Positions 30,139-32,638 of a stretch of 41,415 bases of DNA are shown here, in pieces (within the stretch, counting starts at the first letter, position 1; each line of letters starts with the position of its first letter). Position numbers and translations under genes: made by a program. Under the pieces are notes generated by a model. It worked only from the letters and a program-made list of their open reading frames with translations, was not told the DNA's origin and searched no databases. This DNA is from Bacteroidales bacterium (lineage in GTDB: Bacteria > Bacteroidota > Bacteroidia > Bacteroidales > UBA932): assembly GCA_017558775.1 (NCBI GenBank), contig JAFYTP010000054.1, positions 1 to 41,415 on the forward strand. Direction: 5' to 3'.

Positions 30139-30170
30139 TTTGCTTGCAAAGATAAAAATAAATAATTTTG
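30139..30170 (+). promoter_or_regulatory. Promoter of the kinase-RapZ/nucleotidyltransferase operon, leaderless start
   Basis: TTTG (30139-30142), exactly 20 nt, then TAATTTTG (30163-30170) match the full Bacteroidota consensus. Transcription should begin at about 30176-30178, right on the tandem ATGs at 30174 and 30177, so the mRNA is probably leaderless. Confidence 0.75.
30147..30154 (-). promoter_or_regulatory. -7 box of the phytase-like lipoprotein gene
   Basis: The minus strand reads TATCTTTG. It lies between the -33 and -7 boxes of the opposite promoter, so polymerase could not occupy both at once. The expected start near 30141 leaves about 10 nt before the ATG at 30131. Confidence 0.6.
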
Positions 30171-30173
30171 CAT

Positions 30174-31697
30174 ATGATGTCACTCGAATCACTTTTTGAA
30201 CGCTATACGGGCGCTGCTCCGGTTTTTAAGGTAGCGCTCACCGGGTCGGCCTCGCACCGGCGGTACTACCGCCTGACGGGGGCCGATGGACGGTCCCTCA
30301 TCGGCGTGGAAGGCACCGATGCCGACGAGAACCGCGCGTTCCTCACCATCGACCGGCACTTCGCCGCGAAGGGGATCAACGTTCCGAAGGTCGTGGCGGA
30401 AGACGGTCTCTGCTACCTGCAGGAGGATCTTGGTTCTACGGTCCTGTATGACGCCCTGGCAGCCGGCCGCGCCTCCGGCAATTACGGTCCCGACGAGGTT
30501 ACTTTGCTTTGCAAAACCCTTGCCGCGCTCCCGAAAATCCAGGTCGAGGGTGCCCGCGGGCTGGACTGGTCCGTGTGCTATCCGCAGCCTTCCTTCGACG
30601 CTCGGATGGTGGATTTCGACCTGAACTATTTCAAGTACGACTTCTTGAAGCTCAGTGGTTTGGAGTTTAACGAGGTGCGCCTGCAGGATGATTTTGACCG
30701 TTTCCGGGCGGATCTCCTGGCTGAGCCCTCCGACACTTTCCTGTATCGGGATTTCAACGCCCGCAATGTGATGCTGGTGGACGGCGAACCTTGGTTCATC
30801 GACTTTCAGGGCGGCCGCCGCGGTCCGGTCTATTACGATGTGGCATCCTTCCTCTGGCAGGCCCGCGCCCGCTATCCGGAATCCCTCCGAGAACAGTTGC
30901 TTCAGGTCTATCTGGACGCGCTCCGGGCATACATTCCCGTGGACGAAGCCCACTTCCGCTCCCGCCTCCGCCTCTTCATCCTCTTCCGGATGCTCCAAGT
31001 CCTCGGCTGCTATGGCTACCGCGGTCTCTGGGAGGGCAACAAGGCGTTTAGCGACAGCATCCCTCCGGCATTGGAGATTGTTAAGTCTCTGCTGCCGTTT
31101 GAGGACTATCCCTACCTGACTGAAGTTTTGACGATGCTTTGTGGGGGCGCCTTTCCTCCGGAGGGTGTATTGTTTCCCAAACCCTCCGCAATCAAAGATT
31201 GCTCCGTCCCTCCCACCGCAAGCGGCGGGCCCCTCCCTCTAATGTGCCCGAGGGTGGGCACAGGTTTGGGAAACAACACACCCTCCTGCGAGTCGCCCCT
31301 AACGATAACTGTTTATAGCTTTTCATATAAAAAGGGTATTCCGGAGGATACTTCCGGGAATGGGGGAGGGTATGTATTTGACTGCAGGTCAGTGCATAAT
31401 CCGGGGAAGTATGAACGGTTCAAGCAATTGACCGGGCTAGACAAGCCTGTGATCGATTTCCTCGAAGAGGACGGCGAGATACTCAAGTTCCTGGACAACG
31501 TCTATTCCTTGGTCGATGCGCACGTGGAGCGCTTCCTTTCCCGCGGCTTCACGCACCTCCAGGTCAGTTTTGGCTGCACCGGCGGCCAGCACCGCTCCGC
31601 CTACAGTGCCCAGCACCTCGCCGAGCATCTCGTCTCGAAATATCCCGTCCGCGTGCACCTCATCCATCGCGAACGTGGCATAGAACAGTGGCTATGA
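30174..31697 (+). CDS. AmgK-like sugar kinase fused to RapZ C-terminal domain, with in-frame repeat insertion
   Basis: The N-terminal 325 residues resemble aminoglycoside-phosphotransferase-fold kinases of the AmgK type (MurNAc/GlcNAc anomeric kinase): SASHRRYYRL near the start, catalytic FLYRDFNARNVM (Asp193) and metal-binding FIDFQGGRRGPVYYDVAS (DFQ, 210-212). Residues 376-507 are a RapZ C-terminal domain (YSFSYKKGIPEDTSGNGGGY, then VFDCRSVHNPG and VSFGCTGGQHRSAY). In proteobacteria that domain binds glucosamine-6-phosphate. From memory the fusion is common in Bacteroidota. Residues about 330-373 are encoded by a structured repeat (31160-31286) and look like junk linker (Pro, Gly, Ser, Cys). 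The frame is intact. The next gene overlaps by 4 nt. A role in peptidoglycan sugar recycling is inferred. Confidence 0.85.
   Translation: MMSLESLFERYTGAAPVFKVALTGSASHRRYYRLTGADGRSLIGVEGTDADENRAFLTIDRHFAAKGINVPKVVAEDGLCYLQEDLGSTVLYDALAAGRASGNYGPDEVTLLCKTLAALPKIQVEGARGLDWSVCYPQPSFDARMVDFDLNYFKYDFLKLSGLEFNEVRLQDDFDRFRADLLAEPSDTFLYRDFNARNVMLVDGEPWFIDFQGGRRGPVYYDVASFLWQARARYPESLREQLLQVYLDALRAYIPVDEAHFRSRLRLFILFRMLQVLGCYGYRGLWEGNKAFSDSIPPALEIVKSLLPFEDYPYLTEVLTMLCGGAFPPEGVLFPKPSAIKDCSVPPTASGGPLPLMCPRVGTGLGNNTPSCESPLTITVYSFSYKKGIPEDTSGNGGGYVFDCRSVHNPGKYERFKQLTGLDKPVIDFLEEDGEILKFLDNVYSLVDAHVERFLSRGFTHLQVSFGCTGGQHRSAYSAQHLAEHLVSKYPVRVHLIHRERGIEQWL
31160..31286. repeat. Cloverleaf-like structured repeat, copy A, inside the kinase-RapZ gene
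   Basis: Outer arms 31160-31183 and 31263-31286 pair at 23 of 24 positions. Inside are three hairpins: GCAATC-AAA-GATTGC (31188-31202), CCC-a-CCGC-AA-GCGG-c-GGG (31212-31229) and TGTGCCC-GAGGGT-GGGCACA (31243-31262). The core CCCCTCCCTCT (31230-31240) and loop GAGGGT are shared with copy B. It lies between the kinase and RapZ domains and keeps the reading frame. Confidence 0.85.
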
Positions 31698-32548
31698 AAG
31701 CGATGATCTTTGCCGCGGGGCTTGGGACCCGCTTGAAACCCATCACGGACACGATGCCGAAGGCGCTCGTGCCCGTCTGCGGCCAGCCGCTGCTGTACCA
31801 CGTTCTCACCAAGCTCGTCGCGGCCGGTTATAAGGATGTCATCGTCAATGTCCATCACTTCCCGGACCAGATTATCGACTATCTCTGCATCAATGATTTC
31901 GGTGCAAATATCACTGTCTCAGATGAACGGGACTACCTGCGGGAAACCGGGGGAGGTATCAAGCACGTACGAAGTCTTCTGGAAGAAGATTGCAGTGGTC
32001 TTCCAGAATCGTCGCTTCGCGACCCCTCCCATCTTCGATGGGCCCCTCCCTCTCATGGTGCCGAGGGTGGCACAGATTCTGGAAGACCACCGCAACCTTC
32101 TTCCCCGTTCCTTGTTCATAATGTCGACATTATTAGCAACTTAAATCTCAAGTGGTTGCGGGAGCAGCACAGGGATGATGCTTTGGCGACAATCGTGGTG
32201 AGTGAGCGGGAGACGCAGCGGTATTTCTTGTTCGATGAGGAGGGGAGGTTGAAGGGGTGGACGAATGTCAAGACCGGGGAGGTGAGGAGTCCGTACGGGG
32301 ACATCGACCCGAACAATTATCGCAAGCTGGCTTTCGCCGGGATTCATCTGATGTCGCCGGCAATCTTTGACGCCTTCGACAAGCTCGGTTTCGGTGACCG
32401 TTTTTCCATCACGGACTTTTATCTGAAGGCTTGCGCCGAGTATCCGATCTATGCAGCCGTGCCGCCGGGGTTCAAGATGGTCGATGTGGGAAAGTTTGAC
32501 ACGCTTCCCGAGGCGGAAGCCACATGTGCCTCCATCCTATCTATTTAG
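31694..32548 (+). CDS. MurU-like nucleotidyltransferase with in-frame repeat insertion
   Basis: This sugar-1-phosphate nucleotidyltransferase resembles MurU (UTP:MurNAc-1-phosphate uridylyltransferase). The 284 residues show the nucleotide-binding signature MIFAAGLGTRLKPITDTMPKAL (seen as FAAGLGTRLKP and TMPKAL), VNVHHFPDQI, RETGGGIKH, the metal-site FLVHNVDII (Asp145) and FKMVDVGKFDTL at the end. The ATG at 31694 overlaps the upstream stop as ATGA; a GTG at 31688 is less likely. Residues about 99-136 are encoded by structured repeat copy B, inserted in the loop just before the VHNVD strand; homologues normally run from LLxxDEP directly into FLVHN. The frame is open, but whether the enzyme works with this loop cannot be told. 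With the AmgK-like gene it would form a UDP-MurNAc salvage pair. Confidence 0.85.
   Translation: MKAMIFAAGLGTRLKPITDTMPKALVPVCGQPLLYHVLTKLVAAGYKDVIVNVHHFPDQIIDYLCINDFGANITVSDERDYLRETGGGIKHVRSLLEEDCSGLPESSLRDPSHLRWAPPSHGAEGGTDSGRPPQPSSPFLVHNVDIISNLNLKWLREQHRDDALATIVVSERETQRYFLFDEEGRLKGWTNVKTGEVRSPYGDIDPNNYRKLAFAGIHLMSPAIFDAFDKLGFGDRFSITDFYLKACAEYPIYAAVPPGFKMVDVGKFDTLPEAEATCASILSI
31981..32104. repeat. Cloverleaf-like structured repeat, copy B, inside the MurU-like gene
   Basis: Outer arms 31981-32010 and 32075-32104 pair at 28 of 30 positions. Three hairpins follow the plan of copy A: GTCGC-TTC-GCGAC (32011-32023), CCCATC-TTC-GATGGG (32028-32042) and GTGCC-GAGGGT-GGCAC (32058-32073). The core CCCCTCCCTCT (32043-32053) is identical to copy A. 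Arms and the first two hairpins have different sequences from copy A but keep pairing. Confidence 0.85.
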
Positions 32549-32566: not shown

Positions 32567-32598
32567 TTTAGAGGTGCACCAGGCGGTGCACCTCTAAA
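32567..32598. terminator. Bidirectional terminator hairpin between convergent genes
   Basis: TTTAGAGGTGCACC, loop AGGC, GGTGCACCTCTAAA form a perfect 14-bp stem in the 90-nt gap between the MurU-like gene (plus) and the CPBP protease gene (minus). The stem ends are A/T-rich on both sides, giving weak T-tracts in both directions. Confidence 0.75.
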
Positions 32599-32638
32599 AC
32601 GTTAAGTCGTTATGTATAAGCCGGTTGCGAAACGGGGC

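Follow-up and report, generated by a model that had tools for sequence, protein, structure and literature searches.

We analysed a window of 41,415 nt from a Bacteroidales bacterium (GenBank assembly GCA_017558775.1, contig JAFYTP010000054.1, positions 1 to 41,415 of the forward strand), in which two overlapping genes each carry one copy of a palindromic element within an open reading frame. The upstream gene encodes a kinase, which we take to be AmgK-like, joined to a RapZ C-terminal domain, and the downstream gene encodes a MurU-like protein (Table 1). A sequence-only reading of this DNA had described both inserts as hairpin 1, CCCTCCC, hairpin 2, CCCCTCCCTCT and hairpin 3 with the loop GAGGGT, flanked by paired arms and leaving the host frames open. 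Every one of these parts lies where that reading had placed it, and both frames are open through the inserts. We found that the two copies are members of a dispersed family, whose elements occupy sites that are empty in relatives, between genes or inside conserved genes with the frame kept open. One strand of the element, the G-rich one and here the minus strand, is kept foldable into a four-way junction of the arms and hairpins 1, 2 and 3, to which a pseudoknot adds pairing between the hairpin-3 loop and the strand adjoining hairpin 3.

Table 1. Coordinates of the two element copies, their parts and their host genes in the window.
Feature	Positions	Strand	Remarks
Host gene 1	30168..31697	+	Phosphotransferase-fold kinase fused to RapZ C-terminal domain; PF01636 at residues 24-254, PF22740 at residues 378-502
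Element copy 1	31160..31286	-	In the linker joining the kinase and RapZ C-terminal domains; the G-rich (minus) strand folds
Copy 1 left arm	31160..31183		24 nt, 96% complementary to right arm
Copy 1 hairpin 1	31188..31202		From sequence and folding
Copy 1 first CCCTCCC motif	31208..31214		Last CCC lies within hairpin 2; no covariation with hairpin-3 loop
Copy 1 hairpin 2	31212..31229		From sequence, covariation and folding
Copy 1 11-nt core CCCCTCCCTCT	31230..31240		CCCTC at 31235-31239 is one side of the pseudoknot
Copy 1 hairpin 3	31244..31261		Loop GAGGGT at 31250-31255; GAGGG at 31250-31254 is the other side of the pseudoknot
Copy 1 right arm	31263..31286		Inverted-repeat partner of left arm
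Host gene 2	31688..32548	+	MurU-like nucleotidyltransferase; PF00483 over cut-off; frame open through copy 2
Element copy 2	31981..32104	-	In MurU, between LLEED and PFLVHNVDI; the minus strand folds
Copy 2 left arm	31981..32010		30 nt, 93% complementary to right arm
Copy 2 hairpin 1	32011..32023		From sequence and folding
Copy 2 first CCCTCCC motif	32024..32030		From sequence
Copy 2 hairpin 2	32028..32042		From sequence and folding
Copy 2 11-nt core	32043..32053		CCCTC at 32048-32052 is one side of the pseudoknot
Copy 2 hairpin 3	32058..32073		Loop at 32063-32068; GAGGG at 32063-32067
Copy 2 right arm	32075..32104		Outer end is an inverted copy of the GGAAGAAG bases

The two arm pairs are the longest of the eight inverted repeats in positions 31100-32200. 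Relative to dinucleotide shuffles, the folding energies of the window copies give z scores of -7.7 to -9.6 as DNA and -7.1 to -11.8 as RNA, on both strands. As RNA, the minus strands reach -78 and -80 kcal/mol and the plus strands -68 and -70 kcal/mol, so that the minus strand folds better; both copies are sense to their hosts, and the host mRNA holds the less stable strand. The outer end of the left arm of copy 2, GGAAGAAG, probably consists of host codons, judging from its alignment with relatives.

The unit common to the family runs arm, hairpin 1, CCCTCCC, hairpin 2, CCCCTCCCTC, hairpin 3, arm, and has a median length of 126 nt (quartiles 118-138, range 97-181; 162 non-redundant copies). 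The window's own 2.63 Mb draft genome holds 14 exact-core copies (pattern CCCCTCCCTCTN{0,20}GAGGG) and none of the reversed pattern, which takes the sequence-only observation well beyond the two copies first reported, with hundreds more in relatives. Of 61 genomes searched, 21 hold the exact pattern, 149 times in all. These carriers are 21 of the 37 genomes searched from the genus of the window, own genome counted; the 24 genomes outside it have none. A covariance model built from 18 copies (E <= 1e-4) gives 162 matches spread over 11 genomes: the own genome has 19 and ten close relatives have 2-27 apiece, a few of these being weak (the weakest listed has about 36 bits). Across the order, the model matched 5 of 247 genomes, own genome counted, spanning four families; one other genome has 12 matches and another a single weak match. 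A scan of one genome per GTDB species found at least 120 stretches with the exact core, the best 80 of which all come from metagenome assemblies titled Bacteroidales or Bacteroidia, many with titles that point to rumen or gut samples; among the matches listed, one is from a Candidatus Coprenecus. The window's genus, which may be Cryptobacteroides, numbers more than 400 species in the genome collection, and the exact core pattern had no match in viral contigs. The copies analysed here were gathered by their exact core, so divergent copies are absent from the counts.

Some copies lie in opposite orientation within about 250 bases of each other (L177, L164 and L174; L318, L319 and L321; L and G numbers are our handles for loci and genomes), in the manner of bacterial interspersed mosaic elements (BIMEs). 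The pairs in G576 join two subfamilies, and most copies of one subfamily there (L315-L325) also share a downstream flank. Members of a repeated gene family may contribute that flank as their coding end, perhaps a sorting-signal domain.

Comparison of orthologous sites bears directly on mobility. Of 10 relatives, 8 have an empty L013 site, with the upstream stop and the next start one base apart (overlapping in G241); the element lies forward in the window genome and G359 and inverted in G256. At the L009 site, it is absent in all 10 relatives, some of which have other repeats. The site of copy 2 (site C) holds it forward in G359 and in inverted orientation in G093 and G241; 4 of 10 relatives lack it there (G418, G318, G003 and G389), and three have other repeats in its place (G173, G088 and G256). 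At the site of copy 1 (site A), it is forward in G093, G359 (rearranged), G418, G318 and G173, inverted in G088, G003 and G241 (partly deleted in the last two) and missing or replaced in G389 and G256. The empty alleles at the L013 site and site C agree with the earlier suggestion of a mobile structured element. That suggestion would have failed had related genomes conserved the insert as protein; in relatives it is instead absent, inverted or replaced.

Inverted repeats of flanking sequence beyond the arms (score >= 16) accompany 21 of 162 copies, versus 1.2% after flanks have been exchanged among copies; a single site seen in three species accounts for three of the 21, and those at L045 and L071 are possibly interrupted arms and not host DNA. 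At the L013 site, the end of the upstream gene supplies one half of the flank repeat, and the empty sites lack the other half. Therefore, this flank repeat arose with or after the insertion.

In related species, repeats of other types, such as CCTGTCATTCTGAACGAAGTGAAAGAATCT and TTTGTCATTTCGACCGAGCG, are found in the spots where the element inserts, at sites A or C (L082, L083 and L084) and at the L009 site (L134, L136, L137, L141 and L142). Since these spots are filled by other repeats, with the frame open where they are genic, they accept several repeat families. At site A (L076 and L082), G359 and G173 share a rearranged core, in which extra sequence replaces part of CCCCTCCCTC. Five relatives (L076, L079, L082, L083 and L084) share a similar stretch of about 130 nt between genes 1 and 2 that is unrelated to the element; in the window, the two genes overlap at this place.

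The arms differ from copy to copy and remain paired. A model-free comparison of each left flank with its reversed right flank gave a best local alignment score of at least 40 in 144 of 171 copies, versus 1 of 852 swapped pairs under the same treatment. Over arm positions 7-22 (136 copies), identity between copies is 35% and complementarity within a copy is 95.8%, the latter figure inflated by the alignment step. A model of 26 pairs on 98 aligned copies, an alignment fitted to and hence favouring that model, contains 503 double-change cells versus 136 in shuffles, and the covariation collapses when one side is slid; the compensatory stems seen in two copies thus extend to the family. At orthologous sites, 62 arm columns have changed: in 43 both sides changed and still pair, in 17 one side changed, and 2 are mixed. 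This count comes from 12 overlapping pairwise comparisons at five sites and omits some occupied relatives and two further sites, dropped for gapped pairs. Among copies outside this count, 25 of 25 positions are paired in G241 at site C, 23 of 24 in G173 at site A and 26 of 30 in G359 at site C. At site A in G093 (L075), poorly matching arms look drawn from the alleles of different species, the left G418-like and the right G173-like, which suggests recombination within the element or a mixed assembly.

The sequence-only reading had also raised the pairing of GAGGGT with the CCCTC of the core, and this pairing covaries. The 98 aligned copies comprise 81 with CCCTC/GAGGG, 7 with CCCGT or TCCGT and ACGGG, 2 with CCCGC or TCCGC and GCGGG, 1 with CCCAC/GTGGG, and 7 rows that hold variants of the outermost position (one a paired change, TCCTC/GAGGA) or, in one row, a gap. 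The helix is 99.2% paired with 18 double-change cells, and none of 500 shuffles reaches either value or its covariation score; two measures that count pairs and types are reached by 9 and 26 of 500 shuffles. Pairing of the hairpin-3 loop with the first CCCTCCC was considered and rejected: the motif has no double change with the loop, and it stays CCCTC in 7 copies with the loop ACGGG. Because the first motif does not covary and the second does, the pseudoknot partner is the second CCCTC, in the 11-nt core.

We next ask which strand folds. Non-Watson-Crick pairs in the arms of 165 copies are G.U or G.A on the minus strand in 142 cases and on the plus strand in 29, with 25 others; the 105 copies of the GTDB scan alone give 81, 18 and 22. 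The minus-to-plus bias recurs in every host context: 37:6 in sense genic copies, 22:4 in antisense genic copies, 27:4 and 18:3 between co-oriented genes (co-sense and co-antisense) and 38:12 elsewhere. Across all stems of the 98-copy alignment, G.U-type cells number 72 on the minus strand versus 14 on the plus strand, and G.A-type cells 97 versus 21. By stem, the G.U-type ratio is 31:3 in hairpin 2, 24:1 in hairpin 3, 1:1 in hairpin 1 and 0:3 in the pseudoknot; the G.A-type cells of hairpin 3 are mixed (28:20). The minus, G-rich strand of the element is the one that folds. Action through the host mRNA was rejected, as the wobble bias is independent of the host strand; the fold therefore serves the element, as RNA or single-stranded DNA (ssDNA), and not the host mRNA. 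A G-quadruplex on the minus strand was considered and is not claimed, as most G tracts are taken up by hairpin 2 and the pseudoknot.

Inside genes, the element is most simply regarded as translated and tolerated in loops and linkers. At most 63 of 161 exact-core copies (171 minus 10 near a locus edge, and including loci fetched through the host genes themselves) lie inside long open frames, 39 sense and 24 antisense. Broken down by origin, the genic share is 47 of 110 copies from the GTDB scan (26 sense and 21 antisense) and 5 of 14 from the own genome; G016 and G003 together have 4 genic copies of 28, and loci fetched by host gene or site have 7 of 9. A slightly different cut places up to 71 of 180 copies in genes, with five of the six frames used; genic copies have more frames open (3.3 versus 2.2 in the other copies). 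A scan of 12 host proteins gave 11 of them a match above a curated cut-off and L012 a weak match only. The host families are the kinase with RapZ C-terminal domain, the MurU-like protein, TruA, YgiQ, an alanine-racemase-N protein, an RlmI-like methyltransferase, DnaX, RibF, RNase R, MtaB and TruB. Both genes of the window also stay open through forward and inverted inserts in the ten relatives, except for gene 1 of G359, whose frame shifts at a rearranged copy. The best NCBIfam matches of gene 2 are MurU, below cut-off, and the match ends at residue 101, where the insert begins. Just 3′ of gene 2, an inverted repeat, TTTAGAGGTGCACC..GGTGCACCTCTAAA, at 32569-32600 is possibly a terminator.

Taken together, we consider it probable that this is a non-autonomous family of mobile palindromes, about 126 nt long, moved as a folded single strand by a putative trans-acting enzyme. 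The strand recognised and moved by that enzyme would most likely be ssDNA, which we favour over RNA given that a search of seven carriers detected no reverse transcriptase. Once the element is inserted, it may be extended into host DNA by hairpin (snap-back) copying along the palindrome, which would leave an inverted copy of the flank; judging from the minority of copies that have them, snap-back copying from a palindromic end would be the simplest source of the extra inverted repeats. Recombination or strand switching between the arms could flip the core, and may help to keep the arms complementary. More tentatively, the family could represent a new class of mobile element, in which a pseudoknotted, four-way-junction, G-rich single strand is moved by an enzyme other than a Y1 transposase or a reverse transcriptase, target sequence is duplicated in inverted form by snap-back, and the arms are partly fossils of earlier targets, complementary by construction and selection; we regard this wider proposal as doubtful.

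Several points weigh against the mobile interpretation. Mobility is deduced from comparing sites between relatives and not from observed transposition, and neighbourhood, Y1 and reverse transcriptase (RVT_1) searches found no mobilizing enzyme. No direct target duplication is visible at two empty sites, where the flanks are only 79-90% identical. The comparison genomes are mostly drafts or metagenome assemblies, and the copies share ancestry, so that counts are not independent; the changed pseudoknot forms come from G576, G524 and G426 only and represent few independent events. Arms lacking pairing in other copies would have told against the sequence-only reading, and they form a minority: arms chosen by local alignment and trimmed at two adjacent mismatches, a procedure that favours pairing, span at least 14 positions in 156 of 171 copies and fewer in 15. 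Arm length alone is a weak measure, since 112 of 852 swapped pairs reach 14 positions. Outside the orthologous-arm count, G093 has only 18 of 24 arm positions paired at site A. The genic counts are upper bounds, as L166, L167 and L242 look like chance wrong-strand frames. Finally, resident copies keep their pairing over species divergence, which selfish mobility does not in itself require.

The searches for a mobilizer bear on the first alternative, that the family is a repetitive extragenic palindrome (REP) mobilised in trans as ssDNA by a Y1 tyrosine transposase (REP-associated tyrosine transposase, RAYT). REP families are tagged GTAG or CGTC, some are genic, and CGTC types are listed for Bacteroidetes in the part of the source available (PMC3733652). 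Our elements resemble REPs and BIMEs in being dispersed palindromes with inverted pairs and partly genic families. The fold asymmetry of one strand, the fact that copies follow a stop codon at the L013 and L009 sites, and Y1_Tnp matches in 10 of 12 genus genomes (E <= 0.001; over cut-off in 9) all speak for such an enzyme. However, none of 30 Y1 loci holds the core within 1.5 kb on each side (there is one weak hairpin-3-like match), and hence none of these Y1 genes is flanked by element copies; at E <= 0.1, Y1 matches are lacking in five of seven carriers (G000, G524, G576, G606 and G426, of which the last four are 96-99% complete) and fall below cut-off in the other two. Of 162 copies, 9 and 13 have GTAG near the two arm ends (control 3 and 5), and 7 and 4 have CGTC there (control 12 and 19); neither tag marks the element ends, and an element of about 126 nt with a branched fold differs from a GTAG-tagged hairpin of 20-40 bp. 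Gene-neighbourhood clustering over about 120 loci found no mobilizer-like family that recurs near copies: the largest cluster covers 8 loci, mostly far from copies, and two others, with 4 loci apiece, come to within about 120 bases of copies in 3 or 4 of their loci and presumably represent orthologous sites. We judge this alternative unlikely.

To a similar degree, we doubt that the minus strand acts as a small RNA, either as a regulator or as a retro-mobile RNA like a short interspersed nuclear element (SINE). The tolerance of G.U and G.A, the pseudoknot and the covariation would fit a selected RNA, as would the pairing that resident copies retain across species. Yet ssDNA would tolerate G.T and G.A as well, and the orientation relative to host genes flips. 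Reverse transcriptases (RVT_1, PF00078) were found in 0 of 7 carriers and in 3 of 14 control genomes, and Rfam gave no match at gathering score on either strand of the window and nothing convincing at a lax threshold.

Template-switch correction of quasi-palindromes during replication could keep the arms palindromic by itself, leaving the fold unselected. This process would explain why orthologous copies stay paired and why inverted repeats extend into the flanks, but it should not favour one strand irrespective of context, as seen in the arms (142:29) and in hairpins 2 and 3 (31:3 and 24:1), and it leaves the covariation of the pseudoknot unexplained. We therefore hold it to be quite unlikely. 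Even less probable is a miniature inverted-repeat transposable element (MITE) of an insertion sequence that, like IS1272, targets or replaces stem-loops (described in the accessible part of PMC5678879), so that the arms would be the target's own inverted repeats. The arms do vary by site, and other repeats are found at the same spots in relatives; on the other hand, the 8 of 10 relatives that are empty at the L013 site have no inverted repeat to replace, and no recurrent gene was found beside the copies. That the inserts are beneficial protein segments under protein selection, as open frames in conserved genes and persistence over species at sites A and C might suggest, deserves hardly any credence, given that copies use five of the six frames, the peptides that inverted alleles encode at the same place are unrelated, relatives lack the inserts and changes track base pairing.

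Coding palindromes are best known from Rickettsia and Wolbachia, and to our knowledge no established way of movement is known for them. The closest known kind is the Rickettsia palindromic element (RPE); we file our family with coding palindromes, and not as a member of the RPEs or REPs. This likeness was drawn from published descriptions of those elements. In the portions of the sources available, RPEs are about 100-150 bp long and lie in frame in conserved genes, including an enzymatically active guanylate kinase (PMC2229807), in many host genes of R. conorii (PMC10969869), TruB among them (PMC3733652), and at orthologous sites across species (PMC3767692). Like RPEs and Wolbachia palindromic elements, which these partial accounts describe as many-copy palindromes of about 100-150 bp, intergenic or genic in frame, our elements have this length and insert in frame in conserved genes, and TruB is a host in both. 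They differ from RPEs in phylum and lack the CGTC tag described at one end of the R. conorii elements (PMC3733652, in part). Set against the RPE descriptions in these excerpts, the Bacteroidales element is further distinguished by its branched fold, covarying pseudoknot, arms nearly unrelated between copies, strand-biased wobble, orientation flips and excess of inverted repeats outside the arms.

Enterobacterial repetitive intergenic consensus (ERIC) sequences, Correia/NEMIS and other bacterial MITEs are likewise non-autonomous and folded, with in-frame fusions known; as far as the same partial source goes, they have terminal inverted repeats and target duplications (PMC2229807), whereas the Bacteroidales arms vary per copy. 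The coding palindromes of Nematomorpha mitochondria are also inverted repeats in protein genes, though the opening of the abstract speaks of no dispersed family built on a common core (PMC6649704). Neither this element nor any like it in Bacteroidales genes is described in the literature searched, which included few subscription journals and preprints.

In an abundant gut Bacteroidales family, empty, occupied and inverted alleles can thus be compared, and strand-specific covariation reveals the folding strand; the two together make the nature of the mobile intermediate testable. The cost of carrying about 40 foreign residues in TruA, RibF, DnaX and RNase R becomes testable as well. For annotators, the family is a warning that proteins of these bacteria can hold parasitic segments.

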